A stretch of 64,000 bases of DNA, from the NCBI GenBank assembly GCA_037349105.1, contig JAYJMM010000103.1:930001-994000 (forward strand). Direction: 5' to 3'. The notes under the pieces were generated by a model. That model did not search any database and had not been told where the DNA came from. It saw only the letters and a list, made by a program, of their open reading frames with translations. The DNA is from Limnomonas spitsbergensis (taxonomy: Eukaryota; Chlorophyta; Chlorophyceae; Chlamydomonadales). Made by a program: the position numbers and the translations under genes. This document shows, piece by piece, positions 4,380 to 60,509 of the stretch. The number at the start of each line of letters is the position of its first letter. The first letter of the stretch is position 1.

Positions 4380-7300
4380 CTAATAATAACTTTCGCACCT
4401 CCTGAGCGCCTCCACTTCCTTCTGCAGCTCTGCCGCCACCCCCAGCTTCTTCTGCAACTCGGCAATCTCCACCTCCAGCTTCATGGCTTTCTCACGTTCC
4501 CGAGCCAGGCTCTGCTTAGAGTCGTCCCAGCCCTGCAGCAAGAGAGTCGATGGGGCTGAAATTTGAATGAAACATCGCCGGCGCAAGGTCGTGCGGCTCG
4601 TGAAGTGGACGCACAATTTTGTAAGTGGGGTGACATGTCATCATGAAAAAATCACTAAACCCGTACCCCTAAAAGGTTCCTGGTGATGTGTGAAAACACC
4701 AACCCTAACCTTAGCCCCTAAACATCGTTTCTGGTGATGTGCCAAACCTCCCAACCGTAACCCTAACCCCTAAACATTGGTTTCTGGTGATGTGTGAAAA
4801 CAACGTGACTTTCTTTCAGTTGCACATGGCCTTCTCACACTGATGAGCCAGATTTCAGCTAGGAGTCGTCCCAACGCCAACAAGATCAACTAGCTAGTAG
4901 ACAAGGGGGGTGATAGGTGACTTCAAAAAAACCACCATATTTGTTTTTCATTGGCACAGCTGTCGCGCGCTCACAGCCTAGTTTGGGGTTAAGGGTTTAG
5001 GGGGTTAAGGGGTTAAGGGGTTACGGGGGTTAAGGGGTTAAGGGGTTAAGGGGGTTAAGGGGTTAAGGGGTTAAGGGGTTAAGGGGGATGAACATGTTTA
5101 TTTCCCATTGGCACAGCAAACGCCGTGCGCGCTCACAGCCTGACACTGCTTGGATTCATCCCAACCTTGAAATAAATGCCCCGACCTCGCGTGAATCTGT
5201 CCGGCACATCCATCCCGAGGGATATCAGCCAGTCCAGGCATGCCTAAATGGGCATGCCGTGCGGCACTGAGCCATCAATCAAAGTAGCAGCGTCAGTACC
5301 CAACTGAGATCACTACATTCCCCCCCACTAGAATGAATACCCGATGGCATCCTAGCGGCATTGGTGGAGCGTGAGGGTATATAAGCAGTTTAGGCAGGGG
5401 CGTTACGCACACCATTCCTCAACTCTGTGCCCCCCTCCAGCCTACTGGCTGCCACTACTCCTCCCTTCTCCCCCTCCGTCCTCTTGCCACCTGCATCCCC
5501 CTCAAGCCAGCTTGTCCTACAGCTTGTATCCCCCCTTTTCACACCATTCCGCATCTGTTCGCCCCCTCTGGCCTCTCTGCTGCCTATCCTCCTCCCCCCC
5601 ACCCTTTTACACCATTCCGCAGCAGTTAAGGCAGGGGTGATATCTGACAGTACGGGCACAATATGATTCCCTCTCATTAGCACACAGGAAGAATCTGCTT
5701 GGATTCGTCCCAACCCTGACGGAAAGTGAGCCTCTTTCTGTCTTTAAAACACGTGTCACAAAGGAGCCTCACACCTCATATCCATTCGCCTCATGAACAC
5801 TGATTTCATTTTTCGGCTACCAGTCCACCTTTGGCAGGCCGCCCCGCAGCCGTCAAAGGCCCGTTTGGGACCAAGTCTGGACTGGCCTATGACTCGTGGC
5901 CAAAGCAGCATGGCTGGCCACAATGGGGGCCGTCGGCCAGAGGCGGGATCGTGGATGACATGTAGCTGGACCACACAAAACAAGAAGCCCTCAAGATCCC
6001 TCCTAGATCCCTCCTAGATCCCCCCTAGATCCCTCCTAGATCCCTCCTAGATCCCCCCCCCTCCCCTATCCGTGATTCTGTAGTCGCTCCTGGGTACGAC
6101 TCGTACTGGAACACAGAAACGATGATTGGTCTTCCAGTCCACAGTCGACGCTCAGCACCGGAAATATCCGTAACAACAATTATGGAATCACTGCCCCTCC
6201 CCACCCCTTTACCTTGTTGACCTCAACTAGTGCCGCATGCACCCTAATCAGCTTGGCAGGTGTTGCATTCCTTCCTAAACCCTAAACCCCTTACCTTGTT
6301 GACCTCAGCTAGTGCCGCATGCGCCTTGTTCAGCTCATTCCTCAACAGCGCTAGCTCATGACCTACAAGCACAAGGACAGATAGTGCATCAGTGGAAGCA
6401 TATGAAAGGAAACAAGACCAACACACACACACATACACACCAGATACAGGATGATGGTGGAGGTATACACAATGAGGCATGACCTTCGCACACACACACA
6501 TACACACACCGACCCCTATCAGACATCGGTTGAGGCGTATTCCTTGAGGCACGCCCTACGCACAAACAACCGCAGGTTCAATACCCCCCCTCAACACCGG
6601 CTACGCCCAGCAACCAGTCCAACGCGAACCCTTCCACGCCCCCCACCTGCAGCTTAACCCTCCACCCTTCATCATCCCCTACCTGCAGCTTAACTCTAAA
6701 CCCTTCGACATCACCCACCCGCCGCCTCCTTCGCCGCCGCCGCTTCGCGGATCGCCGCCTCAGCGCTCTGATTGGCATCCGCCAGCTCGGATCGGAGCTC
6801 TGAAACCTGCAGAGGGATGCAGGCTTGAGGCGGCATCGGGGGATCCCTGATCCGGATCCAGGATCCCTGATCCGGATCCAGGACCTAGGGCACGCGTGAC
6901 ATGCTTGGCCAGCACGTGTTTCTTCCCTGCGGAATATATAAACCGCATAAATAAACCTCTGCATACTTCCTCCGGAGAGATATTATTTCAGCTACCTGTA
7001 TTATTTTGTGTGTGCTAGTTTGTGTAAGGGTCAGTACAACTCAGCACTGCATTGGTACAATTCAGTACAATTCAGTACTGCATCTGTACTGCGTATTTAT
7101 GACGGATCATATGTGTTTATATTGTCCAATTTTAGTTTGGGCCTCGCATCGATACCTCGCAGTCCGGGCCTCGCATCGATACCTCGCCTTGGTGGCTGAG
7201 TGGAGGGGACCTCTCTCACCCGTTGCGCGTCTGTCGGGGGTGGTCGCGTGGGCAGCGGCGGCGGGACAGCTGCGGCAGCGGCTGCGGCCCGGTCGGCTGC

Positions 7301-7453
7301 GGGAGCAGGCGCCGCACCCCCTGCTGAAGAGGTGGACTTCTTGACGGCAACGGCAGCGGCGGCGGCGGCCGGCAGGGTTTGCCCGGTCGCTCGGTTCTGC
7401 AGCTCTGTGGCGGGCGCCTTGGGTAGGGCGTCCGGCACTCGGATGACGTTCAC
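4380..7453 (-). CDS. Linker and coiled-coil exons 14-17 of the kelch ACBP
   Basis: Exon 14 (7220-7453) begins VNVIRVPDALP and becomes an Ala/Pro-rich linker of about 60 residues. Exons 15 (6719-6806), 16 (6295-6362) and 17 (4380-4532) form a heptad-rich helix: SELRSELADANQSAEAAI, then HELALLRNELNKAHAAL, then MKLEVEIAELQKKL and ELQKEVEALR. The KLEVEIAELQKKL block mirrors the C-terminal coiled coil of plant class IV ACBPs. Exon 17 runs to a TAG at 4380-4382 after RRCESYY. A donor-like AG|GTGCGA at 4399 leaves open one more unseen exon. Confidence 0.8.
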
Positions 7454-10400
7454 CTATGAAGGTTAATGATTCAGGGTTAAGGGTTCAGAAACAGCATATA
7501 GGGTTCAGGGTTCAGGGTTCAGCAACAGCACATGTTCAGACTGATACACATGGCTCATGATTCAGGGCAGAGGGGTTCAGCAGCAAGACCTGTCCAGACT
7601 GAGGGTTGAGGGTTAAGATTACTTATTACGGTATATGAGAAGATTCACAATATCGCGAAACCCTTATCGCTCAACTAGGCATGAAGCTACGCGCATACAA
7701 ACCCTAACCTGCAATCTAGGCTTCATGGGTTAAGGGTTTAAACTAAACCCTAACACCTGAAACCCTGACCTGCAACCTAGGCTTCATATATATTTAGGGT
7801 TTAAACTAACCCTTTAACTTATACCCCTAACATGCAGCCTAGGCTTCAGGCTGCACGCATGAAAGCCTGGACCCTAACCTAGACTTGATGCTGGTTCACT
7901 GAGGGCTCAGTGATCTTCAGATTCGCCATGCCATGACGGGTTTGGTCTCATCTTGACGAGACGTGTTTTTACTCTTGTTATCGAGGTATATAGAGTTTCG
8001 CAAGGCCACTCAGGACATCTGGCGCCAGATCTCCGGATCTGGTGCCAGATGTTCCACGATCGTTTTTTTTACATTCAAAAAGAGAGCCCCAGGTTTACAC
8101 AAGACCCTATGGGAGCGTTAGGGGTACTGCGCACTCGGGGCCCCAGGTGTCCTCAGCGGCATTTCGAAACCCCATACTGCATACCTCAACAAACCAGTGT
8201 AGGGTTTGAGAATGCTGAGCCCATTGGTTTATCAAAGTGCCAAACTGTCTTTCAAAAAGCCAGTTTCGTTTTCGACTGATCACACACACGCAAGAGGTTT
8301 TGAAGTCACCACATCAAGGTTCATTACATTTCATGAAGGTTCATTACATTTCATGAAGGTTCATTACATTTCATTAGGGTTTATTACATTTCATGAAGGT
8401 TCATTACATTTCATTAACATTCGTTACATTTCATTAAGATTTATTATGTTCATTCAGATTCGTTAAATTTCATCAAGGTTTGTGCAATCACTGAACGACA
8501 GCTTTTCACCTGACCGCACCCTGGTTCACACAACGCCACGAGTAAATATTCATCACACGACGAGGGCTTTGCATTCAAATTTCTCTGATCACATCAGATG
8601 GGGTCCGATGGGCACCCCTGGGATCACATCTGGGGGTCAGATCTGGGTCAGATCTGGGATCAAATCTCTGGGTTTCACCCCAGATCATGTCCAGAGGTCA
8701 CACGTAAGATCACATATCTGGGTTTCCCCTGATCTCTTCTAGGGGCCACACCTGGGGTCACACTTGTACATTTTTGAACTCACCAGGTTGTGATACTTCC
8801 CGTTGTATCCTCCGAAGCTTAGAAGCACGTATTCAGGGATCTCAGCAGCGGCCTGCGGGTGATATAAGCAGCATATCGGGTGGTGCAAGCAACACCTTGG
8901 GTGGCTCAAGCAGCAATGAAGCATATCAGGCAGTACAAGCAGCTGTGCTGCATATCGGGCAGTACAAGCAGCAAGTACATGCATATTGGGCAGTACAATC
9001 AGCTGTGCCGCGTATCCGGTAGTACAAACAACAAGTACACATACCGGGAAGTACAAGCAGCAATGAAGTATATCGGGCAGTACAAGCAGCAAGTAGACGC
9101 ACATCTGGCTGTAAAATAAAACCGAGCGGTATCAATAAGAGTCAAGCGAACCCGGTCAGATCCTTGACCCAAGGTAGGGCCTTGGCGACCTAACGGCATC
9201 AAGTACCATATGCCAGCAGCGGAGATCTTTGCTATGAGTTAAACGCACGCACACGAGTGTGTGTGTGTGTCCCACCCCCCTGCATCCCCCCAAGTGTGTG
9301 TGTCCCTAGCGGCCCCAGGCGTACTATATGCCAGGGCAGCAGCTTAGATCTTTGCTATGCATTAAGCTCACACACAAGAGTGTGTGTGTCCCACCCCCCC
9401 TGGCCTGCATCCTGCCACCCCGCACACCTTGGGTGCGGGCAGAAGGGCGAGGGAGATGCCCTCAGAGGACAGCGGGTCGCGGATCGGGATGGACGCAACC
9501 AAGTGCCAGGCGACGGATCCGGAGGCAAGGTCCGTGAGATCCAGGGCCAACATGTCGGTGCAGCCTGATCAGGAGGGAGCAGAGGGGCAGAGGGGCAGAG
9601 GGTTGAGATACAGGGTGAAGGGGCAGAGGGGCAGAGGGTTGAGATACAGGGTGGAGGGCAGACGGGCAGAAGGGCGGAGGGTTTGAGATTCAGGGTCGAG
9701 TGGCAGAGAGGCAGAGGGTTTGACATTCAGGGTCGAGGGGCAGACAGGCTGAAGGTTTGAGATTCAGGGTGGAGGGCAGACGAGCATAAGGGCGGTGGGT
9801 TTGAGATTGAGGGTCTAGGGGTAGTGAAGCAGAGGGGTTTAGGGTTGAGGGTTTAAAGTTTGACATTGAGAGTGAAGGGAAAGGGTTTAAAGCTTAGGCT
9901 GGAGGGGTAGAGGTTTTCACATTGAGAGTTGAGGGGCATAGGCTTCAGGATTTAAGGTTGCCCACACTCACTCTTCCACACCTCCACACACTCGTGTCCA
10001 GCTGTTCACACCTTTGATGCTGTTGCCCTTTATGATGATGTACTACACAGAGCCCACAATCACTCTTCCACACCTCCACACACTCATGCCCAGATGTTCA
10101 CACCTTTAATGTTGTTGCTCCCTCCAATGATATACCAGACGGAGCCCACAATCACTCTTCCACACCTCCATACACTCTCGTGCAGCTGTTCACACCTTCA
10201 TGTTGTTGCCCCCTCCAATGATATACCAGACAGAGCCCACAATCACTCTTCCACACCTCCACACACTCATGTGCAGCTGTTCACACCTTTGATGTTGTTG
10301 CCCCCTCCAATGATGTACCAGACAGAGCCCACAATCATCCCGCAGTGGCCTGCCCTGGGCGTGACCTTGGATCCACCCTCGATACGAGTCCACTACTCGT

Positions 10401-13400
10401 GTCAGAGGAGAGGGGGGGACAGGTAAGGACGTATGTGATACATAGGGTGATACACATATGTGTGATACAAAGTGTAATACACACATGTGTGATGCAACGT
10501 GTGATACACACACGTTTCATGTTAAGTGTGACATCAACACTTGTGAACCAGCTGTACAAAGATGACGCCAGGAGGGGCGTGGCAAAGTGTGATACACCAG
10601 AGGAAGTGGCATGGATGTGCCTTGGATACGAGCGTACTGCTCATATAGGGGGGTGGGGGTGGGAGAATGTGTGATGATGCCACATTATGACATAAAGAGT
10701 GACAACAGGTGACACACAAAAGTGGGGGCCAGGGATCCACGTTTGACATGAGTCCACGTAAGTCAAGGTATAGCGGCTTTGTGATCAGCCCCAGATGAGA
10801 TGGGCACATGGGACCATTCATTGGGTCTATGGGGACAGCATGCATGAGCTTATTGAATGTACGAATGGCTTATTATATGGACTAAGGGTTCATTGCATGG
10901 ATTAATGGCGTATTGCATGGGAAATCATCATCATCATGCATCCATGTGTGCAAGGAACCTCCTTACCTGCATGGGGATCGCATGGGTGTCCAGGACGTGC
11001 AGGTCGTTGAAGCAGCTGGCCATGGTGCCGCCTAGGGACGGGGGGGGGGGAGGGAGAAGATGACTGGGATGGGAAGAATGGGAGGGGAGGGGAAATGAGA
11101 GGAGGGGGGGGGGTGATGAGGGGCAATCAACATAGGGCAGCAACCGCACGTGGATGGCCATTTACTTTTTCAGGATTTGCACGGAGAAGGAGCTCCTTCT
11201 CACTCAACTCCGGAGCTCCTTCTCACCCAACTCCAGAGCTCCTTCTCACTCAACTCCGGAGCTCCTTCTCACTCAACTCCGGAGCTCCTTCTCACTCAAC
11301 TCCGGAGCTCCTTCTCACTCAACTCCGGAGCTCCTTCTCACTCAACTCCGGAGCTCCTTCTCACTCAACTCCGGAGCTCCTTCCCACTCAACTCCGGAGC
11401 TCCTTCTCACTCAACTCCGGAGCTCCTTCTCACTCAACTCTAGAGCTCCTTCTCACTCAACTCCGGAGCTCCTTCTCACTCAACTCCGGAGCTCCTTCTC
11501 ACCCACCTCCGGAGCTCCTTCTCACTCAACTCCGGAGCTCCTTCTCACCCAACTCCGGAGCTCCTTCTCACTCAACTCCGGAGCTCCTTCTCTCTTAACT
11601 CCGGAGCTCCTTCTCATTCAACTCCGGAGCTCCTTCTCACTCAACTCCGGAGCTCCTTCCCACTCAACTCCGGAGCTCCTTCTCACTCAACTCCGGAGCT
11701 CCTTCTCACTCAACTCTAGAGCTCCTTCTCACTCAACTCCGGAGCTCCTTCTCACTCAACTCCGGAGCTCCTTCTCACCCACCTCCGGAGCTCCTTCTCA
11801 CTCAACTCCGGAGCTCCTTCTCACCCAACTCTGGAGCTCCTTCTCACTCAACTCCGGAGCTCCTTCTCACCCAACTCCAGAGCTCCTTCTCACTCAACTC
11901 CGGAGCTCCTTCTCACTCAACTCCGGAGCTCCTTCTCACTCAACTCCGGAGCTCCTTCTCACTCAACTCCGGAGCTCCTTCTCACTCAACTCCGGAGCTC
12001 CTTCTCACTCAACTCCGGAGCTCCTTCCCACTCAACTCCGGAGCTCCTTCTCACTCAACTCCAGAGCTCCATCTCACTCAACTCCGGAGCTCCTTCTCAC
12101 TCAACTCCGGAGCTCCTTCTCACTCAACTCCGGAGCTCCTTCTCACTCAACTCCGGAGCTCCTTCTCACTCAACTCCGGAGCTCCGTCTCACCCAACTCC
12201 GGAGCTCCTTCTCACTCAACTCCGGAGCTCCTTCTCACTCAACTCCGGAGCTCCTTCTCACTCAACTCCGCAGCTCCTTCTCACTCAACTCCGGAGCTCC
12301 TTCCCACTCATCTCCGGAGCTCCTTCTCACTCAACTCCAGAGCTCCATCTCACTCAACTCCGGAGCTCCTTCTCACTCAACTCCGGAGCTCCTTCTCACT
12401 CAACTCCGGAGCTCCTTCTCACTCAACTCCGGAGCTCCTTCTCACTCAACTCCGGAGCTCCTTCTCACTCAACTCCGGAGCTCCTTCTCCCTCAACTCCG
12501 GAGCTCCTTCTCACTCAACTCCGGAGCTCCTTCTCACTCAACTCTTGTCAACCTCTCCCCCCCTCCTCTTCATGTCTGTCATAAGGCCACCACCTTACTG
12601 ACATGTTTACGGTTCCGTTCACAGCATTCGTTTGTACCGTATCGGTATCCGTACCGCCTTCCCGGATGCTGGCAAGCTGCACACTAAACTAGATGGTAGG
12701 TTACCCAGTGCTACAGCCAAATGGGTGCCTTCCTTAATCCACGCCCCAGGGCGCATCTCTTTCTTACTTTCTTACCGTACCATTTCACCAAATCGTACTT
12801 CCGCACCGGGCAGCCCTGCTTCCTCCCAGCACCTCCTCTATATGCTTGGGTCCCAACCCCATATATGACATATGAATATATCCCAACACCGCATCTTCAA
12901 GCTATCCATCAGGCCCCCTTCTCGCCTCCTCCATCTGGCCCTGTCAATCCGTTTGCGCATTTCCTTGTCCACACTTTTTCACACCAGTGCACATTTTAAA
13001 GTATTCCAGAATATGAAGAGAAAATATCGCCCCACACACCTATCCGGCTACCCCCACCATCTCCTCATACTTATCCCACACTTGTCCTCACCTCCAAATA
13101 CCAGCAAGTAGCGGTTCTGATACACAGCCGCAGAGTGGGCCGACCTGGGCGCAACAGGCAGTACAAGACGCAGGGGTGATGGGTTGCTGGTACGGATCCA
13201 ATGATGTACAAGCAGTGCATGTACACAGATTACGGACCGCTCAGGCAGTACGCATGGTCGCATCCTTAGATGAGGTACGTTAATGCGGTACAGAAATAAA
13301 CAAACAAGGTTGGCTCAATCTCCCAAACAACCAAATACACACACTTGCAACACACCCATGTGTAGTACACACATGAGGTACGGTGCGTTTTGTACTTAAC

Positions 13401-16400
13401 GTGCCAACCTCACCAGGCCAGGGCTGCCTACAACAATACGTCAACAAACTGGTGGCAAACACACGAGCAGTACAAAATGTGGCGGCACATTTCCACACCT
13501 GGCCCGGACGGTAGGCCTGTCGTCTCTGGCTGCACTCAATTTGAGCAGTCCAGATCCAGGTACCAGAGGTCAACACATCAGCGGTACAGTGTACACGCAT
13601 GGGCAGTACACAATACGCACCATGCCCCCACCTGGCTAGGGGTGGCAGGCCCACCGTCTCTGGCTGCACCCAAGTCATGTAGTCTAGATCCAGGTACCAC
13701 AGGTCAACACATCAGCGGTACAGTGTACACGCATGGGCAGTACACAATACGCACCATGCCCCCACCTGGCTGGGGGTGGCAGGCCCACCGTCTCTGGCTG
13801 CCCCCAAGTCATGTAGTCTAGATCCAGGTACCAGAGGTCAACACATCAGCGGTACAGTGTACACGCATGGGCAGTACACAATACGCACCATGCCCCCACC
13901 TGGCTGGGGGTGGCAGGCCCACCGTCTCTGGCTGCCCCCAAGTCATGTAGTCTAGATCCAGGTACCAGAGGTCAACACATCAGCGGTACAGTGTACATGC
14001 ATGGGCAATACATAACACGCAACATGCCCCCACCTGGCTGGGGGTGGCAGGCCCACCGTCTCTGGCTGCCCCCAAGTCATGTAGTCCAGATCCAGGTACC
14101 ACAGGTCGCCGAGCGGGCGCCGGTGTGGGTCCTCCCCGGCAAACACGTACAGGCGCCGGCCAATCAGGCTGGCCTGGTTGAGGGTGGGTGGAGGGTGAGG
14201 GTGGGCGGAGGGGTAAATATCGAGGGTGGACGAGTTGAGGGTGAACGTGCCAGTCCTACCCGGCATGCACACGTACGTGCAGTGTCCAATCAGCCTGGCC
14301 TGTTGCAGCTCGGGATGGTGGGAGGTGTAGACGTCAAACAAGTGCAAGCTGGCAAGCTGTGTCCCGCTCTTCATTTTTACTCTCAGTCACATTTTCATGT
14401 TTTTATATGTTTGGATTCCAATATAGGGAAGTATACAGATTTTCAGAAAGAATTACTGAGGTGCAATTTATTAGTTAATTGCAAAAAAAGCGAAATTCCC
14501 TTTCCGGCAAATCAACCCCTTTTAATACAAATAAACCCCTTTCAATACAAATAAACCCCTTTCAATACAAATAAACCCCTTTTAATACAAATAAACCCCT
14601 TTCAATACAAATAAACCCCTTTTAATACAAATAAACCCCTTTCAATACAAATAAACCCCTTTCAATACAAATAACCCCCTTTTAATACAAATAAACCCCC
14701 TTCTTACCGAGTGCCCTCCCCTGGGTGATGGCGCATTGCCCTGGGGCCGTAGCGCGACCACGTCACCGGCCAAGTCCAGCACATACACCGGCATTACATC
14801 AGGGGCATCCTTGGCCTGCAGGTGTAGGGGCAGGTGTGGAGGCAGGTGTGGAGGCAGGTGTGGAGGCAGGCGTGGGGGCAGGTGTGGAGGCAGGCGTGTG
14901 GGACAGGTGTGGAGGCATGTGTGGGACAGGTGTGGGTGGGGGGCAGATTTCAGGGCTTCCTTGGCCTGCAGGTGCGGGGGCAGGTTTGTGTGGCAGGTGC
15001 GTGAGTGTGTGTGGGGGTAGGGGGGCAGAGTCCATCACTTGGCCTGCAGGTGCGGGGGGAGGTGTGGTAGTGGTGGAGTGTGTTTCAGAGTAGGTTAACC
15101 ACCAACCCGGGCCGCATAATGAGAATAAACAGTCGACATATACAGGTCGAGTGGGCCTTGGCACTGGCCGAGCGTTGGGCAGGGCCCTCGAGGTGCTACG
15201 CACCTCGAGGGCCCTGCCCAACGCGAGGGATGAGGGGGCATATTTCAACACTTGGCCTGCACGTGTAAGGGCAGGTGCGGGGGGGAGAGGGGAGGAGGGT
15301 AAGATTTCAGCACTTGGCTTGCAGGTGTGGGGTGGAGTGGGGTGGAGGGGCAGGTGTGGGGGCAGGTGTGGGGTCAGGAGTGTGTGGGGGGGGTAGAGGA
15401 ACAGGTTTCAGCACTTGGCCTGCAGGTGTACGGGCAGGTATGTGTGTGTGTGTGGGGGGGGGGGCAGATTCCAGGGCATCCTTGGCATGTAGGTGTGTGG
15501 GCAGAGTGTGAGGGGTGAGGGAAGGGGGGCAGGTTTCAGGGCATCCTTGGGGCCTGCAGGTGTGGGGGCGTGTGTGTGGGGGGGGGGAAGGGCAGATTTC
15601 AGAGCATCCTTGGACTGCAGGTGGGGATGAGGGGGGGGTTATAGTTCAGGGTAGCACATCTCGTTCTCTTTCAGAGCCCCCCTGCCCTCTCTCTATGCCC
15701 TGTGGATGAGTTCAGAGTGGAACAGTAGCTGACTATTTGCTATGTCCGCTGCTCCTGCAGTGCCCCAAAACCTAGCAGTGCAAACCACTAAATGGGCTCA
15801 CACCCTCCCCACACCTTGCTACGCCCACCCAGGTAATACAATAGTCAGAGGAAATGGGCGTTAGCGCGGAAAAAGGACGAACGAACGGGTTCGCAATGAC
15901 CCCCCAAGTTCCCCCTCCCACACACACCTTGCTATGCCCACCCAGGTAGGAAAGAGCCAGAGGAGTCACCTCCCCAAGGTCCCCCCCCCTCCCCCCCTCC
16001 CCCCTCCCCCGCACCTTGCTATGCCCCCCCAGGAGCCTGGGCAAACCTGGGCAAACCACTGAATGTGCTCACACCCTCCCCACCTAGGAGCACCCCAACA
16101 CACCCTCCCCCCACCTTGCTAGGCTCACCCTTGACGACCAGTGCAAAACACGGAAGGTATTCTCAGCCTCCCCGCCTGGCAGCGCCCCAACACACCCTCC
16201 CCCCACCTTGCTAAGCTCACCCTTGACAACCAGTGCAAAACACGGAAGGTATTCTCAGCCTCCCCGCCTGGCAGCGCCCCAACACACCCTCCCCCCACCT
16301 TGCTAGGCTCACCCTTGACGACCAGTGCAAAACACGGAAGGTATTCTCAGCCTCCCCGCCTGGCAGCGCCCCAACACACCCTCCCCCCACCTTGCTAAGC

Positions 16401-19400
16401 TCACCCTTGACAACCAGTGCAAAACACGGAAGGTATTCTCAGCCTCCCCGCCTGGCAGCGCCCCAACACACCCTCCCCCCACCTTGCTAGGCTCACCCTT
16501 GACGACCAGTGCAAAACACGGAAGGTATTCTCAGCCTCCCCGCCTGGCAGCGCCCCAACACACCCTCCCCCCACCTTGCTAAGCTCACCCTTGACAACCA
16601 GTGCAAAACACGGAAGGTATTCTCAGCCTCCCCGCCTGGCAGCGCCCCAACACACCCTCCCCCCACCTTGCTAGGCTCACCCTTGACGACCAGTGCAAAA
16701 CACGGAAGGTATTCTCAGCCTCCCCGCCTGGCAGCGCCCCAACACACCCTCCCCCCACCTTGCTAAGCTCACCCTTGACGACCAGTGCAAAACACGGAAG
16801 GTATTCTCAGCCTCCCCGCCTGGCAGCGCCCCAACACACCCTCCCCCCACCTTGCTATGCCTACCCAGGACCACCAGCCCCAAAATCTGCCGGTGCCCCA
16901 AAACACTCTCCTCACAAAAGGACCACCAGTTCCCCCCCCCTCCCCCCACCTTGCTATGCCCGCCCAGGACCACCAGGGCATCCTTCCACGGCGTCATGGT
17001 GTGACCCGCGATGGCAGGCAGGCCCGAAGGGGCGGAGGCCTTGGGCGCAATGGCGGCTGGCGCATCCACCGGGGTGGGGGAAGCAGCAGGCACGTCCACC
17101 TCAGCAGCAGGGGCATTCTCCTGCTGGGGGATTGCAGGGGTGGAATTGCAGGGGTTGGTTGTTGTTGATCGGCTACCTAGAGCGGAGCAGAAGAAAAGCT
17201 ACGGCGGAAGTTCTCTATGTAAGAAGGGTGAAGGGTTTAGGGTACGGCAGTAGCATTCAGCAGTACTATGGGTGGGACAGCAGGCTACGACGACAGCCTT
17301 CAAGCTGGGCAGTAGCAGGAGCACGGAGGTAACCGTTGCTCTGTCTCTGTTTCCTCTTCCCTCCCTCATACTCCAACATTCACCCCTCCCGCCCCTCCCT
17401 CCAACCCTTCTCTCCCTCCCCTCCCCTCCCTCCCTCCCTCCCTCCCTCGCTCCCTCCTTCCCTCCCCTCCCCTCCCCTCCCTCCCCTCCCCTCCCTCCCT
17501 CCCTCGCTCCCTCCTTCCCTCCCCTCCCCTCCCCTCCCTCCCCTCTCTTCCCTCCTTTCCTCCCTCTCACCCCTCCTTCCCTCCCTTCCCTCCCCTCCCC
17601 CACCCTCCCTCCCTCCCCTTCGTCCCTCCCTCCCCTCCGTCCCTCCCTCTCCTCCCTCCCTCCTTCCCTCCCTTCCTCCTCTCCCTCATCCTCCGACATT
17701 CACCTTCTCAACCGGCTGCAAGGTCTGCGTGGTGATGGAGGACCAGGTCATCTTGGTCACATCCAAGCGCCACATGTCACTCAAGTAACGTCCACCTGAT
17801 CACCGGAGGACGCATGCAGGGGGCAGCTCATTTCTGCAATTTACATTTCTACCTTTTGTAAGAAATAAGCGCTTGTCAGGTTTGGCAAGGTGCTTGGAAT
17901 GAGGGGAGGGGCGTCGTCACCCTTACTTGCGGTGACAAATTACCAGGGGGGCTAGTACACAAAGGGACCCATGCATACAGGGGGCAGCTTATTCTGCAAT
18001 TTATTTCATCCTTCTGGAAGAACTACGAGCTGGTCATGTATGAAACCGTCCTTCCTTCTCCTTCTCTTATACCTGTCACTGTTCAGGCACCACTGAACCC
18101 CTTGTGACCGTCCTCGTCCCCTGTCCCCATCCCTCTGTCCCCATTTAAGCTCCCCCCTGCCCCTGTCCCCGTCCCTCTGTCACTGTCCTTGCTTCTCCTG
18201 TCCCTGTCCCTGTCACCGTCCAGGCACCACTGAACCCCTTGTGACCGTCCCCGTCAGCCAGTACTCACTGTGGTTCCCGCCTTGTTAGTTAAGGGTTTAA
18301 GGTTTGGGGTTTTACCCTTGTGTCCATCCCCCTCAGCCACTGCTTACTGTAGCAGCTGCCCACCTAGTTTAGGTTTATAGGTTTAGGGTTAAAGATTCAG
18401 GGTTTAAGAGTTTAGGGTTTAGCCCCCCTTATATCCTTCCCCCTCAGCCAGTACTCACTGTAGCACCTGCCCACCTAGTTTAGGGTTACAGGTTTAGGGT
18501 TAAAGATTCAGGGTTTAAGAGTTTAGGGTTTAGCCCCCCTTGTGTCCACCCCCCTCAGCCAGTACTCACTGTAGTTCCCGCCCACCACGTACAGCATGCC
18601 GTTGATCATGGCCGTTGCATGTTCATACCTGAAAAGGATGAACAAAGGGCAAGGCTTAAATGCTGGAATTCAGCACAATTTTACCCCCAAGTGTCAGGGT
18701 TATGATAACACCAACTGAACCCGAACCCCTTTGCCTATTAAGTACTCCTTGTTTCTTTCAGCATTAACCCTCCGCATATCTATATAAATGCACTGTGCAG
18801 TACCAGTTTAAAGATACATTTGCCATGCCTAAACTATTTTGCGCTCATATCTTTCCACCTACTTATGGCTTTCCATAGTCAATCCTACACCCTGAGCTTC
18901 TCCTCCCCACGCTCCAACCACCACAGTGGCATGCCCAAATTAACCATAAACCCTACACCCCAAAACTCCTCCCCCCCGACCTGGGCCGCGGCATTCCCTC
19001 ATACACCCTAAACCCCAAGCAATCTCCTCCCTCCTATCCACTAACCATGGCAATGGCTTGCGCTGCAGGGTGGACTGCTGCACCAGGGTCCAAGCCCTAA
19101 TTGACCCAAAACCCCAAGCAGGCTTCACACTCCTATCCACTAACCCTAATATACCCCAAGCTTCTCCCTCCTATACACTAACCTTGGCAGTGGCTTGCGC
19201 TGCTGCGTAGACTGCTGCACCAGGGTCCCTGATATACCCCAAGCTTCTCCCTCCTATACACTAACCTTGGCAGTGGCTTGCGCTGCTGCGTAGACTGCTG
19301 CACCAGGGTCCCTGATATACCCCAAGCTTCTCCCTCCTATACACTAACCTTGGCAGTGGCTTGCGCTGCTGCGTAGACTGCTGCACCAGGGTCCATGCAG

Positions 19401-22400
19401 ACGCAACAGCCACCTCGGCCGCGGGGCGCAGCGTCTGGAGTGCTGCTGGTGGCTGGTTGGCCACAGCGGGGTCGGCTGAGCAAAGGACCCCTTCTTGAGA
19501 CGCCTGCATCGATCCCACCTCCAGCAGCAGGGAGTACCAATCTGCCTGCAAGTGGGAAGAGGGGGGGGGGGGGGGGGGGGGGCGAGTCAGGGGCAGCATC
19601 AGACTCCGCCTCCAGCAGCAGGGAGTACCAATCTGCCTGCAAGTGGGAAGAGGGGGGGGGGGGGGCGAGTCAGGGGCAGCATCAGACTCCGCCTCCAGTA
19701 GCAGGGAGTACCAATCTGCCTGCAAGTGGGAAGAGGGGGGGAGGGGGGGGGCGAGTCAGGGGCAGCATCAGACTCCGCCTCCAGTAGCAGGGAGTACCAA
19801 TCTGCCTGCAAGTGGGAAGGGGGGGGGGGGGGGGGGCGAGTCAGGGGCAGCATCAGACTCCGCCTCCAGTAGCAGGGAGTACCAATCTGCCTGCAAGTGG
19901 GAAGAGGGGGGGGGGGGGGGGGCGAGTCAGGGGCAGCATCAGACTCCGCCTCCAGTAGCAGGGAGTACCAATCTGCCTGCAAGTGGGAAGAGGGGGGGGG
20001 GGGGCGAGTCAGGGGCAGCATCAGACTCCGCCTCCAGTAGCAGGGAGTACCAATCTGCCTGCAAGTGGGAAGGGGGAGGGTGGGGGGCGAGTCAGGGGCA
20101 GCATCAGACTCCGCCTCCAGTAGCAGGGAGTACCAATCTGCCTGCAAGTGGGAAGAGGGGGGGGGGGGGGGGGGGGGCGAGTCAGGGGCAGCATCAGACT
20201 CCGCCTCCAGTAGCAGGGAGTACCAATCTGCCTGCAAGTGGGAAGAGGGGGGGGGGGGGGGGGGGCGAGTCAGGGGCAGCATCAGACTCCGCCTCCAGTA
20301 GCAGGGAGTACCAATCTGCCTGCAAGTGGGAAGAGGGGGGGGGGGGGCGAGTCAGGGGCAGCATCAGACTCCGCCTCCAGTAGCAGGGAGTACCAATCTG
20401 CCTGCAAGTGGGAAGGGGGAGGGTGGGGGGCGAGTCAGGGGCAGCATCAGACTCCGCCTCCAGTAGCAGGGAGTACCAATCTGCCTGCAAGTGGGAAGAG
20501 GGGGGGGGGGGGGGGCGAGTCAGGGGCAGCATCAGACTCCGCCTCCAGTAGCAGGGAGTACCAATCTGCCTGCAAGTGGGAAGAGGGGGGGGGGGGGCGA
20601 GTCAGGGGCAGCATCAGACTCCGCCTCCAGTAGCAGGGAGTACCAATCTGCCTGCAAGTGGGAAGGGGGGGGGGGGGCGAGTCAGGGTCAGCATCAGACT
20701 CCGCCTCCAGTAGCAGGGAGTACAAATCTGCCTGCAAGTGGGAAGAGGGGGGGGGGGGGGGGGCGAGTCAGGGGCAGCATCAGACTCCGCCTCCAGAAGC
20801 AGGGAGTACCAATCTGCCTGCAAGTGGGAAGGGGGGGGGGGGGGGGCGAGTCAGGGGCAGCATCAGGGTTACCCGGCACGAAAATACGGAACTTTCAATC
20901 GGTACGGACACAGTGGAAGGATTGGGTGAGCTTATAACTGATAAATATTTTTGTATATACCTGTTTGGTACCCCCCCCCTCCCCCCCTGCGTCCATACCA
21001 CGACCCCCTGTTCCCCTCCCTGTCCTCCGCGCCCATCGGCTGGCAACCACTCTTACTTCCTTGCTCTAAGGGTTGAGGGTTAACCCTCCAACCTTAACTA
21101 AGCTGGTAACCACTCATGGTTTCTTTGCTCTAAGGGTTGAGGGTTAACCCTCCACCCTTAACTAAGCTGGTAACCACTCATGGTTTCTTTGCTCTTAGGG
21201 TTCCCGGTTACGGGTTGTGGGTAAACTTAACCCTATAACCTTTAACCTAAACTAGGGTGGCGGCGACTTTCTACTTCCCAGCTCTTGCCCCCCTCCCAGT
21301 CCTCTGCACCTCTCCCCTAACGCCTGCTGTCACCGCTCCTCTCACTCCCCCACGCACGCCCCCCCCGCCCCCCCCCCCCCCCCCCCGCCCATGAAGTGGC
21401 AACCAGTGCCTCTTTCGCCGTTCCTTCGCTCTGTCTCATCCCTCGTTTCCTCCTCCCCCTCCCCTTTCTCTCCCCTATCCCGCCTTTGCCCTTCCCTTGC
21501 TCCCTCTCATCCTTCAGTCTCTCCCCCCTACTCTCTCTTCCCTCGCTCTCCCTTTCCCCGCTCTCGCCGTGCCCCCCTCTCTCTATCCCCGTTCTCTTGC
21601 ACCCCTTAAACTCTCCGACCCCCACTCCCTGCTCAACTACCCCCTACTTCCACACTCACCTCCTTCCCCCGCGAGCTGGCATCCCCAACAGACATCTCCC
21701 CCGCCGCTCAGGTTAGGGTTTCGGGATTTAGGACTCCCTCCTGCTCACCTGCTCCTCCTCCACCGTGCGCACGTACAGCCGCATGGCCTCCATGCGGTTC
21801 ATCTTCCCCAGGTGCTTCCAGCTCTGCCACTTTGCAATTTCCTCCGCATTGCCCAGGCCCCAGCCTCCTGGCTTGGCGACCTTGCACTCGCCGATGCTGA
21901 TCTGCTGCTCTAGCGCGTACAAGATGAGCTGAGCCTCCGTGCTCAGAGGCTTGCCTGCGGCAGGTGCGGAAGGGTTTTTGAGGACCGAGAGATCTCACCA
22001 GAGGTGTGGCATGTTCTCTGCTCTGCGCTTTCGGCGCTGTCCGGAATGTGCTCGAGAGCGTTGCCTGTGGCTGATGGATTTATTTTCAGGATACCGGTAC
22101 CCATACCAAAATGCCATTATATTTATGTTCTTTTCAATTTGAGCATTTTCCTGGATGTCAGAAATGTGTTCAGGGGTGCCCTGGACGGAGGGGCGGAGGG
22201 ACCGAGGGCCATGTGATCATTAGTAGGTTCTGTGCAGCGCACGCCTGAGGCGTGTTTGGCGATAAATGCGCCAGTGCCCCCAACCCAGGTGGCAGATCAT
22301 AATCCATAACTAGATTTAAGATTGGAGGGCTCAACAGCATTGGAGCCACGCACTCCAGCAAAAGGAAATGGATGTAATGAAGAAGGAAATGACATGCTGC

Positions 22401-22695
22401 ACTCTATAAGGACTTAGTCCAGCACCTGTGTTTGAAGGGCTGCTTCTAAATACTGTGACCTTCAACTTCGCAACGTGACTGATCAGAAGGTGCGCTGGAT
22501 CCACTGTGCGACCTGCTCCAGCCCCGCCAAGTGGCCAGGCAGATCCCGCCCTAAGGGGCCAGGCAGGTCCTGCCCTACCAAGGGACCAGGCAGGTACTGC
22601 ATTGGAGCTTTTTTGCCTTTCCCCTTGCCCATCTTGCCTGCATTCATCTTCATGAACTTGGCAGCTGCCTCGAATCGATCCGGGTAGCCGAGCAT
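4380..22695 (-). CDS. Kelch-repeat acyl-CoA-binding protein (class IV ACBP), 17 exons
   Basis: Binds acyl-CoA esters; plant relatives (ACBP4/5 type) are cytosolic lipid carriers with kelch interaction domains. I built the model from splice sites and phase. Exons: 22638-22695, 21749-21954, 19349-19545, 18570-18628, 17704-17795, 16950-17120, 14708-14815, 14034-14173, 13092-13144, 10967-11031, 10287-10392, 9428-9564, 8784-8852, 7220-7453, 6719-6806, 6295-6362, 4380-4532. Every junction keeps frame and the total is about 667 codons, close to the roughly 670 aa of plant ACBP4/5. Domain order matches: ACB domain, six kelch-like blades, Ala/Pro linker, coiled coil. All introns are GT-AG except intron 1, which looks GC-AG. 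Uncertain points: the first ATG (22695), the exon 6 start (17120 or 17123), and the last exon, which could instead splice out at 4399 rather than stop at 4380. The coding sequence is dispersed over 18 kb of repeat-rich introns. Confidence 0.88.
4978..5086. repeat. Interstitial telomere-like TTAAGGGG tract
   Basis: About fifteen units of GGGGTTAA/GGGGGTTAA in tandem. Many shorter TTTAGGG/CCCTAAA runs occur elsewhere (for example 7500-7800, 18300-18540, 50220-50400). Confidence 0.75.
5805..5985. repeat. Second copy of the GGCCAAAGCA dispersed repeat
   Basis: Contains TTTTTCGGCTACCAGTCCACC, GCAGCCGTCAAAGGCC and GGCCAAAGCAGCATGGCTGG, aligning with 3935-4140. Confidence 0.5.
8318..8480. repeat. 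20-bp tandem repeat (AGGTTCATTACATTTCATGA)
   Basis: About eight units with increasing divergence toward 8480, inside intron 13 of the ACBP gene. Confidence 0.8.
8784..19545 (-). CDS. Kelch-propeller exons 3-13 of the kelch ACBP
   Basis: Exon 3 links the ACB domain to the propeller (ADWYSLLLE start, then an Ala/Gln-rich linker). Blade signatures follow: exon 4 YEHATAMING...YVVGGNY; exon 5 GRYLSDMWRLDVTKMTW; exon 6 AGHTMTPWKDALVVLGGHSK after an Ala/Pro stretch; exon 7 PVYVLDLAGDVV...PRGGHS; exon 8 LYVFAGEDPHRRPLGDLWYL then DLDYMTWGQPE; exon 9 SAAVYQNRYLLVFGG; exon 10 GTMASCFNDLHVLD; exon 11 PRAGHCGMIVG...YIIGGGNN; exon 12 DMLALDLTDL...PLSSEGISLALL; exon 13 EYVLLSFGGYNGKYHNL. The double-Gly, Tyr and Trp spacing is kelch-like, and the order is colinear with plant ACBP4/5. 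Phases of all joins agree. The propeller should be a protein-interaction platform. Confidence 0.87.
10010..10345 (-). repeat. Exon 11 donor echoes, four units
   Basis: Four copies of the exon 11 end (GTNTGGTACATCATTGGAGG through AACATCAAAG|GTGTGAAC) at about 10020, 10100, 10195 and 10285. Only the last is contiguous with the rest of exon 11; the others lie downstream in the intron. Confidence 0.85.
11190..12545. repeat. 23-bp minisatellite, about 58 units
   Basis: Unit contains CTCAACTCCGGAGCTCCTTC with the palindrome GGAGCTCC. The 23-bp period makes all plus frames open, giving spurious Ser/Leu-rich ORFs. Located in ACBP intron 9. Confidence 0.95.
13560..14105 (-). repeat. 134-bp array repeating the end of ACBP exon 8
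   Basis: Copies of the exon 8 end (TACCTGGATCTGGACTACAT ... CCAG|GTGGGGGCAT) plus intron sequence recur every 134 bp (starts of the shared block at about 13671, 13805, 13939 and 14073), with a divergent fifth copy near 13520. The 14034-14173 copy is the functional exon. Confidence 0.88.
14516..14703. repeat. 20-bp tandem repeat just inside ACBP intron 7
   Basis: About nine units of ATAAACCCCTTTCAATACAA begin immediately after the exon 7 donor at 14707. Confidence 0.88.
14821..15640 (-). repeat. Acceptor echoes of ACBP exon 7, about a dozen units
   Basis: The motif CACCTGCAG|GCCAAG with GATGCCC or similar recurs through the intron upstream of exon 7, separated by short G/T-rich spacers. Each unit reproduces the acceptor and the first codons of exon 7. 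Confidence 0.8.
15172..15224. repeat. Perfect 25-bp inverted repeat with 3-nt loop
   Basis: GCGTTGGGCAGGGCCCTCGA... and its exact complement flank a TAC loop, giving a very stable GC-rich hairpin on either strand inside ACBP intron 6. Confidence 0.92.
16010..16960 (-). repeat. 92-bp / 184-bp higher-order array repeating the ACBP exon 6 donor
   Basis: Eight to ten 92-bp units each contain the exon 6 terminus motif AGCAAG|GTGGGG. Units alternate between two variants (CTAAGCTC...GACAACC and CTAGGCTC...GACGACC), giving a 184-bp higher-order period. Spurious 85-codon ORFs start every 92 bp. Confidence 0.9.
17360..17710. repeat. C/T-rich tract in ACBP intron 5 with donor copies at both ends
   Basis: A roughly 300-bp CCCTCCCT-type tract is bracketed by two copies of the exon 5 donor context (GGTGAATGT) at about 17380 and 17700. 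Confidence 0.75.
18250..18570 (-). repeat. Exon 4 donor echoes of the ACBP gene
   Basis: Three decayed copies of the exon 4 end and donor (CTACAGTGAGTACTGGCTGA) at about 18255, 18335 and 18450 lie 3' of the real one at 18570, interleaved with TTTAGGG-like runs. Confidence 0.75.
19145..19348 (-). repeat. Exon 3 donor echoes of the ACBP gene
   Basis: Tandem roughly 80-bp copies of the exon 3 end (CAGCGCAAGCCACTGCCAAG|GTTAGTG) at about 19185 and 19265, and a more divergent one near 19045, follow the functional copy ending at 19349. Confidence 0.85.
19546..20875 (-). repeat. Acceptor echoes of ACBP exon 3, about 16 copies including the real one
   Basis: Units of about 82-92 bp each carry a poly-C tract, CTTCCCACTTGCAG and the exon start (GCAGATTGGTACTCCCTGCT, with GAGGCGGAGTCTGATGCTGC). 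Each is a near-perfect polypyrimidine tract plus AG acceptor. Variable C-run lengths destroy a common frame, so only the copy at 19545 leads into the rest of exon 3. Confidence 0.92.
21749..22695 (-). CDS. ACB-domain exons 1-2 of the kelch ACBP
   Basis: Exon 1 (22638-22695) starts at an ATG and encodes MLGYPDRFEAAAKFM, matching the YPxRFxAAA opening of plant ACB domains. Exon 2 (21749-21954) reads KPLSTEAQLILYALEQQ, then GECKVAKPGGW, then KWQSWKHLGKM and EAMRLYVRTVEEEQ. These are the classic ACB helices with the YxLxxQ, KWxxW and EAMRLYV signatures that form the acyl-CoA pocket. The exon 1 donor that fits the phase is GCAG|GCAAGA, a strong GC-AG type donor. An in-frame continuation past it is Lys/Gly-rich and low complexity. 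Exon 2 is flanked by a CCGCAG acceptor and a CAG|GTGAGC donor. About 680 bp of intron 1 shows no repeat array. Confidence 0.88.
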
Positions 22696-23176
22696 GCAGG
22701 GCTGCGAGCCCGAGGATTGGCCCTGTGTCGATTGCACCAATAATTCGTTTCGTCGGTTCCATCGGTCAGCGAGAGACGAGCCATACAATACTGATATTTC
22801 CCAAATACCTATACATTGATGTATGATGGAGAGCGCCTCACCTCTAATGCCATGGCTCGTAACTTTGGGATGTTCAAGATCTTGCCACTCCGGCAGAGTT
22901 TCCGACAGCCTCGACACAAGTGGTATCACGAACAATTTTTTCAAACTATTTCAAGTAACACCCTGGCGCAAGGCAACAAGACGAGATCGATCAGCTGACC
23001 TCGCTAGGACCGCAACATGACATGACAGCGTTAGCCTTTACTGTACCCTGGCCCTCAACTACAGAATCTCGTCCTCAGCTACTGCGCTACTACGACCAAC
23101 TCAAGGCCAGTCACGCACTGCGCACGCGAGCTCCACTCTGCGACCCACCGGCAGCACAGCCTTTGACACCCAATTT
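22696..23176. promoter_or_regulatory. Candidate bidirectional promoter between the ACBP and DUF493 genes
   Basis: The 481 bp between two head-to-head first exons contain none of the repeat arrays that fill the flanking introns. No TATA-like core can be assigned with confidence. The inference rests only on geometry and on the two predicted starts. Confidence 0.4.
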
Positions 23177-26100
23177 TTGAATTTCGGCCCCATGGTTTTT
23201 TCCGCCAGTGCATCCTGCAGCACGGCCCGCTGCCTCCACTTGCCGCCCCAACAGCGGATGACTAGCCAGCGCTGCGCCCCCACTTGCAGCGCATTACGAC
23301 TAACTCTTGCGTCCAGATCCTACCCTCAAGCGCCTCCCAGCAGACCCCTTCAAACGCCCTCAGCGGCGACAGCGCCCTCTTTACTTTTTCCTCCCCACCC
23401 CCAGCAACAGCGGCGGGTCCTCGCATGTTCGAACCCGCAAGATGGCGTGCCGCAGGGTAGCGACAGCAATAACGATAGCATCGATGACACCAGCTGCAGT
23501 GGGAGCAAAAGCCCAGCTGAGCATGAGGAGCCCGGCGCCAGCCTTTCCAATGCCATTCACTTCTCGCTGTCCGAGGTGGCGAAGATACAGGTGGGCAGTG
23601 CGAGTGTTTCTTTCGGCCATGCTTATCGTGATCAAAGCGGCATTGCTCATGGGAGCAAAGACATGGCATAAGCATGCGTGGGGGGAGGCGGGGAGCAAAT
23701 AAGGGACATGCATGAATGATAGGAGCGAGCATGGTAGGAGCGTGATTAGCAGGAACATGTATGGGATGAGAGTGCATGGGCAGAGTATGCATAGGAGAAG
23801 TGTCCGTGGGAGGAGTAAGCATGATAGGAGCATGCATGGGAGGAGTTTGTATGGGATGAGCATGCATGAGAGAGTGTGCATGGGAGAAGCTTGTATGGGA
23901 GGAGTGTGCAGGGGAGGGGTGTGCAGGGGAGGAGCATGCATGGGGGGAGTATGCATGGGAGGAGCATGCATGGGAGGAGCGTGCATGAGAGGAGCGTGCA
24001 TGAGAGGGGCTTGCATGGCAGGAGCGTGCATGGGGTAGCGTGCATGGGAGGGACAGGCATGGAATGAGCTTGCATGAGAGGGGCATGCATGGGTGGAGGG
24101 TACATGGGAGGGGCATGCATGGCTGGGGCATGCATGGCAGGAGCATGCATGGGGAGGCGTGCATGGGAGGAGCAGGCGAGAGGGGGGCATGCATGGCAAG
24201 TGCAGGCATGAGAGGAACGTGCTTGGGAGGGGGGTGCAAGAGAGGAACGTACATGTGAGGAGTATGCAGTGGAGGAGCGTTCATGGGGGATAGGATAAGG
24301 GGAGAGGCCTTGCTGCCCACCCCTCGCCCTGGCAGGGATGGAATGGACCCCTAGCTTAAGTGTAGGTTCGCTGTGTATTGTATGCGCAGATGCTGTAGCC
24401 ACCCTCCTCTTTCAATTCCCACCTGCCTCCTTTCTATGCAAACCACCGAACTGGTAAGCAACGATGCCTCCACTTGAGCCATGGGTGGGCGGGTGGGCGT
24501 GAAGATGCTTTAATTTTCTATTGACGCTTTTGCGAAAGAAGATAAATGTTGCCAGATTTCAGGGGCTCTTAATCTACGCACCATCCTATCCCTAACCCTT
24601 CACCATATAACCTTATCCCTGTCACTCCTGTCTGTCAGGGTCACAAACCCAACGCACGATGTTCCTAAACCCTTAACCATATGACCTTAACCCTGTCCTT
24701 CCCGGCTGTTAGGGTCACAAAGTCACGATCTTGTTTCTTAACACTTAACAATATAACCTACACCCCGCCCTTCCTGGCTGTCAGGGGCGCTCAACCAACA
24801 CACGATCCGGTTATGAACCCTAAATCATAAATCCCAAACCCTGTCCTTTCTGGCTGTCAGGGCCGAGGGGGGGGCAAAAACAAAAAAATCGACCCCATCC
24901 CCCTTTTTTGTAGAGCTTAACGAGAGCGTTCCATACCTGTTTTTTAAATGTATTTTCCCCGGGGGGGTGGGAGATATGGGGGGGCAAAGTTGGGGGAGGG
25001 GGGTGGGTGGTCCCCCCAAAAATCCGTTTTTGCCCCCAAACTTCGTATCTTTTTTTCTGTAGGTTTGTTGAGGCTGGCAGCGGCACCTATGTGTCCTCCT
25101 TGCCAACATGAGTCCATTTACATCGTAAAATGCTGCTTGAATTACCACTTGCCCCCCCCACACTGAGGGTTTGGCTCCATTGGACACACCCCGAAACCAG
25201 TGGAGTCATTCTTAGTTGACTGTTGGCATGTCATCACCCAGCGAATTGAGTATACGAGCAGAAGCGCCTTGATGAGCTGATCAAAAAACACCCCTTACAT
25301 GCCCTGTAATTTTCAATTTTGACTGATATATTTGAATTTTAATGGGTCCGGAGGCGGGGCTTGGGGTGGGTGGGTGGGTGGTAGGCTCGTTGGTTGTTTT
25401 ATTTGGGGATGGGGTCCCTGGCTTTTTTTGCCCCCCCCCCCCCCCCTCGGTCAGGGCCACAAACCCAACACACGATCCTGTTCTTAAACCCTAAACCATA
25501 CAGCCTAAACCCTGTCCTCCCCGGCTGTCAGGGGCGCTCCACCAACAGCACCAACCTCTTCTTAGTCAATGAGTCGGAGGATTCCTGGAGAAGGCTGGAT
25601 AAAAAGTGAGCACAAAAAGTGAGGGGAGGTGGGGGAGATCTGGTGAGGGGTGAGAGAATGCAAAGACAGGGTGGAGGGCGGCTGACGGTGGATGGGTAGA
25701 ACGTATAGCATATACTGCGAGGGTGCTTAGCGTTCCCCCACAATGTGTCTGAAAAGTGCTTAGCCTTCCCCCACAATGAATGTTTTTGGGAAGTGAAGGT
25801 TGTTCCTGAGGCAGGTGTTAAATGATATTTCGGGGGGGTGAAAGGCAGGTGAAAGGTGTCCTCTTATTGGGAGGTGAATCGCCTGGCCTCTGTGCCTCTG
25901 TCCATTTGTTGGGAGGGGAATTGCTTGTTCTTTAGGACCTTAACCCATTGCAGCAAGCTGATTTGGGTGCTGTACGGTTTAGAGTTTAGGTTCATACCTT
26001 GACGCTCCACCCTTCATGGGGTTGGGGTTTAGGCGTAGGTTCATACCTTGACGCTCGACCCTTCATGGGTTTAGGGGTTGGGGTTAAGGGGTATAGGTTC

Positions 26101-30464: not shown

Positions 30465-30625
30465 CGTTTACTGCCAAACACTAGTTCACTGCCAAAGTTC
30501 ACTGCCAAACACTACTTCACTGCCAATGTTCACTGCGAAGCACTACATAGTTCAAGTACACTGCCAAACACTAGTTCACTGCCAAAGTTCACTGCCAAAC
30601 ACTAGTTCACTGCCAAACACTAACA
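30465..30625. repeat. AGTTCACTGCCAAACACT repeat
   Basis: Seven or eight irregular units of 17-26 bp; no coding signal. Confidence 0.75.
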
Positions 30626-30658
30626 TGTCACAATTTAAGGGCAATTAACAGCTAGTGA

Positions 30659-38632: not shown

Positions 38633-39202
38633 ATGGGAGGGGACATCGTCATGGCAGACCTGGGGACGGCCGAGAAGTGTGAGAGAGCAAGAGCACCAGC
38701 CATGCTGATGAATAAAGTCCCCTCGTACTTAATCCCCCACGTTGCGGCACCAACACTTGGAGCCGTCCAAATGAAAACGAAAATGCAGCTTGGCATGTTG
38801 TTGATGCAAACTACAGGACAAAAGAAGGACTTTGTAGTTCACATTGGGAAATTTAAGTATTGCAGAGACACTGAGCATGTGGACCAGTTAAAAGCTTGCG
38901 TAAACCAGCACACTGACCTCGTTGAGCTACTGATCTTGAACGGGCACCAACGAAACAATATAAACAATATTCCAATCTTGATCGGCACATCGGGCACTAT
39001 TTATAATAAGCACACAATTGAAGCCATGATGTCTATAGGGATCACCGCGTACCAGGCTAAGAAATGCACCCAGAAAATGCATGTCCATTCGATAAAACTC
39101 TTGCATAGCATAGTACAAACCAGACGCAGACTCGAATATTTTTCCGCCACAATGCCTGTCACTGGGCCAATAAAGCACACCCATAAGAGAAAACCACCGT
39201 GA
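38633..39202 (+). pseudogene. C-terminal fragment of a retroelement reverse-transcriptase ORF
   Basis: A 189-codon frame contains a block KFKYCRDTEHVDQLKACV, then IPILIGTSGTIYNKHT, MSIGITAYQAKKCTQKMHVH and IVQTRRRLEYF. This resembles the segment after the reverse-transcriptase domain of LINE-like elements, where a hydrophobic strand, IGxxGTIY and a TRRxLE motif recur. No RT catalytic YxDD lies in frame upstream, so the copy is 5'-truncated. It is immediately followed by the retroposon tail at 39224-39320, as expected for a LINE 3' end. Confidence 0.5.
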
Positions 39203-39223
39203 GGAAGTTGCTTCTTTCTTATT

Positions 39224-39320
39224 GCCACATGGTAACGGCGTGGATGTGGCTACGGCCCCAAGCTGCGTTGCTTCCTTAACCTCCACGCCCTAATATGGCG
39301 TAGCTTTCTTTCTTTCTTCC
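39224..39320 (+). mobile_element. LINE-type 3' tail with pyrimidine-rich simple repeat
   Basis: The block (TGGTAACGGCGTGGATGTGG, later CTTCCTTAACCTCCACG, then GGCGTAG and TTTC repeats) lies directly after the RT fragment. Related tails occur at 48215-48290 (+), 57575-57665 (-), 58033-58130 (-) and 62905-63000 (-). Confidence 0.55.

Positions 39321-41488: not shown

Positions 41489-60509
<19,021 letters not shown>

Follow-up and report, generated by a model that had tools for sequence, protein, structure and literature searches.

The stretch of the Limnomonas spitsbergensis genome analysed here (64,000 nucleotides, referred to as the window) raises the question of whether splice junctions are preferred targets of tandem duplication, or are struck at the same rate as the introns around them. 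The original prediction held that introns of three genes in the window carry tandem units that each include an exon edge, its splice site and adjacent intron, and that repeated duplication of the junction is a mode of intron growth. A junction-spanning copy of this kind is called an echo below.

Exon models were built from Pfam matches, from protein homologues mapped by tblastn and from GT/GC-AG sites in compatible phase, the splice sites being picked by eye from the printed sequence. The three genes match Chlamydomonas eustigma proteins in the same order, g5694 (ACBP), g5695 (DUF493) and g5704 (cyclase), the last being one among several cyclase homologue matches:

1985..22800, minus strand: ACBP4-like gene (ACB domain, Kelch and ACBP4_C) with 18 exons, E1-E18, from Pfam ACBP4_C, P0001 and other homologues, tblastn and junctions; the outer end of E1, the E5 donor and the E6 acceptor are only approximate.
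23429..27656, plus strand: DUF493 gene with exons F1-F5, from Pfam PF04359, homologue P0031 and junctions; the start of F1 is not fixed.
41420..60510, plus strand: guanylate/adenylate cyclase gene with exons C1 (queried) to C12, from Pfam PF00211, homologues P0035-P0041 and junctions; C1-C3, C5, C6 and the start of C7 are only partly defined.

Edges that had no homology support were left uncalled (for example the E5 donor, the E6 acceptor and several cyclase edges). The uniquely placed junctions of the three genes numbered 55 (29 donors and 26 acceptors), the calls being least secure for the donors of C1 and C3. The donor of ACBP exon 1 (22637/22638) is of the GC type, GCAAG. Near position 50470 (50402-50560) the cyclase homology seems to switch frame, either at an uncalled junction or at a frameshift. 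No match at the gathering score was found in Rfam, and no relatives were found among viral contigs.

When each junction was used as a 120-mer query, with 60 bases on each side, in a gapped search of both strands of the 64 kb window (E≤0.01), a local junction-spanning copy was present at 14/55 junctions (10/29 donors and 4/26 acceptors). With homology-based exons, the predicted figure of at least 14 exon edges was therefore right. The ungapped test gave 13/55 junctions at a score of at least 16. Junction queries shuffled base by base, each side separately, gave 0/1100 at a score of at least 14, which is the strong excess of real over shuffled junctions that had been expected. Of 54 matches, 53 were direct copies that lay on the predicted side, within the intron of the junction itself; the lone exception was a minus-strand match of the ACBP E2 donor within a cyclase exon. 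These findings confirm by direct observation the presence of the echoes and their local position. The arrays and single echoes, delimited by TRF and blast, were as follows:

19506..20866, minus strand: acceptor-type array of ACBP exon 3 (exon at 19349-19545), 15 echoes beyond the exon copy, mostly at 82-91 bp spacing.
18996..19398, minus strand: donor-type array of ACBP exon 3, three echoes that are 99, 98 and 85% identical, the unit including approximately 50 bp of exon.
18182..18586, minus strand: donor-type array of ACBP exon 4, three echoes with 17 bp of exon, unit of 111 bp with telomere-like filler.
15996..16980, minus strand: donor-type array of ACBP exon 6, 12 echoes, unit of 92 bp.
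14803..15626, minus strand: acceptor-type echoes of ACBP exon 7, five copies with 10-13 bp of exon, in two blocks.
13459..14107, minus strand: donor-type array of ACBP exon 8, four echoes, unit of 134 bp including 74 bp of exon.
9960..10337, minus strand: donor-type array of ACBP exon 11, three echoes, unit of 92 bp including 51 bp of exon.
6205..6253, minus strand: an isolated echo of the ACBP exon 16 donor, with 88% identity, at a distance of 82 bp from its junction.
24593..24865, plus strand: block with an acceptor echo of DUF493 exon F2 (junction 25531/25532), the echo 747 bp upstream.
26537..26640, plus strand: echo of the DUF493 exon F3 donor (junction 26475/26476) with 82% identity, lying 153 bp downstream of it.
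54963..55198, plus strand: block with an acceptor echo of cyclase exon C8 (junction 55179/55180), the echo 104 bp upstream.
57219..57288, plus strand: block with a short donor echo of cyclase exon C9, a 23 bp match 222 bp downstream.
58590..58660 (approximate), plus strand: decayed echo of the cyclase exon C10 donor, with 72% identity and the GT lost.
59140..59698, plus strand: donor-type block of cyclase exon C11, two echoes.

The strongest cases were both edges of ACBP exon 3 and the donors of exons 4, 6, 8 and 11. The larger arrays consisted of head-to-tail direct copies with units of tens of bp; the single echoes of C9 and F2 were not head-to-tail. By eye, the ACBP E17 acceptor also has weak copies, and a copy lies near the cyclase C2 junction; these stand outside the counts. 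The exon share of the junction-spanning units (13 units, exon and unit lengths entered by hand) was between 0.13 and 0.60 and never above 0.6. Anchoring of the unit at the splice site was rejected on this variation, although uniformity of the shares was rejected as well (P 0.02); selection or exon length may lie behind the upper limit.

The polarity that had been predicted, donor echoes 3' and acceptor echoes 5' of their exon, was observed and proved uninformative, because a local copy of an exon edge hardly survives anywhere but in the adjoining intron and the expected side is forced by locality. The predicted decay of remoter copies held in part. Of the eight cases with several copies, the nearest one had the highest similarity in six (one of these a tie), and the trend was not general: no clear gradient was seen along the acceptor array of ACBP exon 3, whose 15 echoes had 82-94% identity, with the seventh copy best and a rho of -0.33.

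A search of the same genome for kinesins gave 139 exon matches, from which 27 stretches were taken, chosen for compactness before repeats were examined, so that long introns are under-represented. Splice calls were obtained for 48 kinesin introns. The 44 with an automatic score of at least 8 were kept, and the four that scored below 8 were dropped, the intron with the nine-copy array of locus L028 (see below) among them. Echoes with a score of at least 16 were found at 15/88 kinesin junctions (17.0%) compared to 17.8% of 1621 intron-interior positions; copies were found for 5.8% of 1128 exon-interior positions and for 0/352 shuffles. The echo phenomenon thus recurs in unrelated genes of the same genome. 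Longer kinesin introns had more echoes (median 966 bp compared to 394 bp, for 10 and 34 introns, respectively), a relation that is confounded by the larger target. In another kinesin stretch (L042, G000:C41:6292500-6295600), the exon that encodes YGKLVLVDLAGSE is preceded, 326 bp upstream, by another similar copy, possibly a duplicated exon. It is highly improbable that wrong exon calls or assembly errors account for the echoes: three automatic kinesin acceptors did look mis-set, and their introns were dropped from the pooled test below, but the window exons match proteins of other algae in compatible phases and the array copies carry private differences.

The junctions of the window (52/55, the partner edge being uncalled for the rest) were pooled with the kinesin introns, leaving out the three with doubtful acceptors and one more that had no valid controls. 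Over the 66 pooled introns, echoes were found at 26/132 junctions (19.7%; 15 donors and 11 acceptors) compared to 21.5% of intron-interior positions, a difference of -1.8 points with a 95% interval of -9.7 to +6.0, so that junctions could still exceed the interior by as much as 6 points. Self-matches were therefore no more frequent at junctions than inside introns, the outcome that the original prediction itself had named as its refutation. In the window, with equal weight per intron, the interior rate was 33.5% compared to 25% of 52 junctions; the length-weighted one-sided interior rate was 46% at a score of at least 16, inflated by giant arrays. Circular shifts with all arrays in place gave 19.3 ± 3.6 junctions spanned compared to 11 observed (P 0.013 for so few), so strict equality of junction and interior fails in some counts.

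That splice junctions are preferred sites of duplication, owing to co-transcriptional structure, a nucleosome edge or splicing-coupled breaks, is quite improbable. Apart from the 14/55 affected junctions, it can draw on the counts made outside arrays of at least five copies (listed by hand from tandem-repeat output), where 10/54 junctions (18.5%) compare to approximately 16% one-sided interior cover, and on repeat blocks, which lie within 25-50 bp of junctions slightly more often than random placement would give (18 vs. 12.2, P 0.04, and 23 vs. 15.6, P 0.02, both P values uncorrected). Yet the pooled junction rate equals that of the interior, and in a block permutation the excess of junction-spanning blocks was not significant (10 vs. 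7.75 ± 2.5 expected, P 0.23). Repeat cover did not rise at junctions either: outside the large arrays it was flat with junction distance and lowest in the first 25 bp (0.19, compared to 0.25-0.31 farther away), and with all arrays included it climbed toward the intron centre from 0.24 to 0.86. The 82 repeat blocks of the window comprised 50 that were intron-only, 12 junction-spanning, one exon-only and 19 intergenic. The junction rate is close to the interior rate, and a preference for junctions is thus not supported; they are struck at about the intron background rate.

The echoes are probably best accounted for by frequent short-range tandem duplication at indiscriminate positions, combined with exon-proximal splicing. 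The units would range from tens of bp to approximately 180 bp, within the 3 kb searched, and would arise presumably by slippage, unequal exchange or break repair. Where a unit straddles an exon edge, the outer copy would stay on the exon and the others would enter the intron, to persist there, amplify into arrays or decay, and the arrays would lengthen introns by hundreds of bases. Selection on the protein would remove events that break the exon. The polarity of the survivors and their intact exon-attached copy would then follow from the local nature of the duplication and from selection on the exon.

In 20 pieces of 10 kb, evenly picked from 4 of 124 contigs, the mean cover by local tandem duplication was 31% and the median 22%, the mean being raised by two pieces that are satellite-like. 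These two (L014 and L015, from G000:C95, 10 kb each) are nearly all tandem repeat, with 97 and 100% cover, respectively. In the window, local repeat cover was 48% in introns compared to 15% in intergenic sequence, which lies, with its low duplication, mostly at 27657-41419. This intron excess counts against a purely indiscriminate process, unless the intergenic sequence of the window is unusual. Very long intronic arrays were found at 2148-3775 (approximately 68 bp x 23), 11189-12544 (23 bp x 59), 42137-44616 (39 bp x 65) and 48290-49914 (CTTC x 407). Telomere-like CCCTAAA units, mainly in introns, gave 52 matches to CCCTAAACCCTAAA (at most two mismatches) in the window compared to 0.6 expected, and averaged 4.55 per 10 kb in the 20 pieces from elsewhere in the genome; such common filler may mark repaired breaks. 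On the minus strand at approximately 33170-33380, the sequence matches Helitron-like N-terminal and Rep domains weakly and below threshold, and is perhaps the relic of an element.

One amplification could be polarised by a paralogue, in two kinesin genes, L028 and L029, that lie approximately 15 kb apart and are identical at 65/66 residues before a shared junction. A unit of 89 bp (49 bp of exon and 40 bp of intron, with a GC donor) is present in nine head-to-tail copies in L028 and in one copy in L029, and the intron at this junction is 1190 bp and 534 bp long, respectively. This is variation in copy number between paralogues, 9 vs. 1, in one pair only. The L028 donor (position 2211, reverse strand) is of the GC type, GCAAG, in all nine copies. 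The simplest polarity, judged from one paralogue, would make the single copy ancestral and the nine derived. The array-free L029 has an intron at the same place, and the duplication therefore enlarged an existing intron and created none. Thus, the predicted growth of introns by amplification of a junction unit, with one copy keeping exon function, is supported by this pair, and the junction-directed part of that claim is not. The L028 copies are 96-100% alike across the exon part. At one base, the exon-attached copy and the next six share a variant, and the two most distal copies match L029; the copies of the array, including the one at the exon edge, have apparently exchanged sequence.

The echoes also seed cryptic splice sites in number, as had been predicted. 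The core dinucleotide (GT/GC or AG) was kept in 50/53 echo copies of the window and lost in three, one of which comes from a poorly resolved alignment. If the 50 intact echoes were used, 31 would cause a frameshift, 16 would bring in an in-frame stop and three would stay in frame. That selection retains the spare sites as a back-up or for regulation is very improbable. Core retention did lie slightly above flank identity, at 0.905 compared to 0.807 for seven donors and 0.80 compared to 0.706 for five acceptors, a small sample of 12 junctions and 49 copies; against this, most echoes ruin the frame and their frequency is no higher than the intron background. Use of some echoes in splicing, with copied edges supplying the material for new introns or for alternative exons as in the tandem genomic duplication model, is unlikely. 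The kept dinucleotides would suit it, boundary tandem repeats reportedly yielded new introns in human paralogues (PMC2812944) and tandem duplication reportedly yielded an intron in potato (PMC4974935), but 47 of the 50 usable echoes would wreck the frame, and in the kinesin pair the duplication only enlarged an intron that L029 has without an array.

With indiscriminate duplication as the source of the echoes, what would make the extra splice sites tolerable is a preference of splicing for the donor and acceptor nearest the exon, of which the simplest form is pairing across the short exon. The proteins are conserved, and the exon-proximal sites are therefore presumably those used; so many echoes would destroy the frame that splicing apparently favours these sites. 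The donor predicted to be used is presumably the first of its array and the acceptor the last. Pairing across the intron would favour the inner decoys, so exon definition would explain the exon-proximal pattern, as judged from the anatomy of the decoys. For Volvox and Chlamydomonas, intron definition has been argued, with short introns given as the reason (PMC4378016). Tentatively, the decoys may be read as a natural experiment in which the alga picks sites across the exon in the face of up to 15 close copies, and in which exchange between array and exon, as in L028, lets the exon edge evolve in concert with its echoes.

Approximately one fifth of the sampled junctions thus carry decoys of themselves, mostly with intact cores, that arose without an experimenter. 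Such arrays let one ask how the spliceosome ranks near-identical sites by position, and they bear on exon versus intron definition in a unicellular alga whose introns are a few hundred bases long. The paralogous kinesins expose one concrete route of intron growth. Exon edges predicted by gene finders or by self-alignment methods may be wrong in genomes of this kind.

Introners and introner-like elements are intron material that spreads by sequence copies. Introner-like elements form dispersed families, whereas 53/54 echo matches in the window lie in their own intron. In PMC4974935, introners are named, an 83 bp duplication inside an intron is mentioned, and an intron gain in the potato RdRp gene is described that resembles the echoes in the tandem duplication of a stretch with exon and splice signals; it differs in that the algal introns already existed and grew, as seen in the one pair examined, L028/L029. 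The L. spitsbergensis genome contains 33.16% repeats, with unclassified repeats making up 22.78% of the genome, and its mean intron is 720-823 bp depending on the annotation method; the repeat section of that report, as far as available, makes no mention of junction-spanning tandem repeats (PMC11228838). Among titles and the beginnings of abstracts, few of them from subscription papers, nothing was found on junction-spanning tandem arrays this frequent. The closest likeness is to the minisatellites at the boundaries of human segmental duplicates, whose tandem units straddle exon-intron boundaries and alter intron size; they belong there to a recent set of paralogues and are tied to new introns and alternative transcripts (PMC2812944). 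In contrast, the echoes of the alga occur at approximately one fifth of the sampled junctions, in existing introns, and the exon-proximal sites are apparently still used. A unit that holds both exon edge and splice site, as in boundary minisatellites, was found at 14 of the 55 window junctions. The echoes represent a known process, that of minisatellites at exon-intron boundaries, in a variant form whose frequency is striking.
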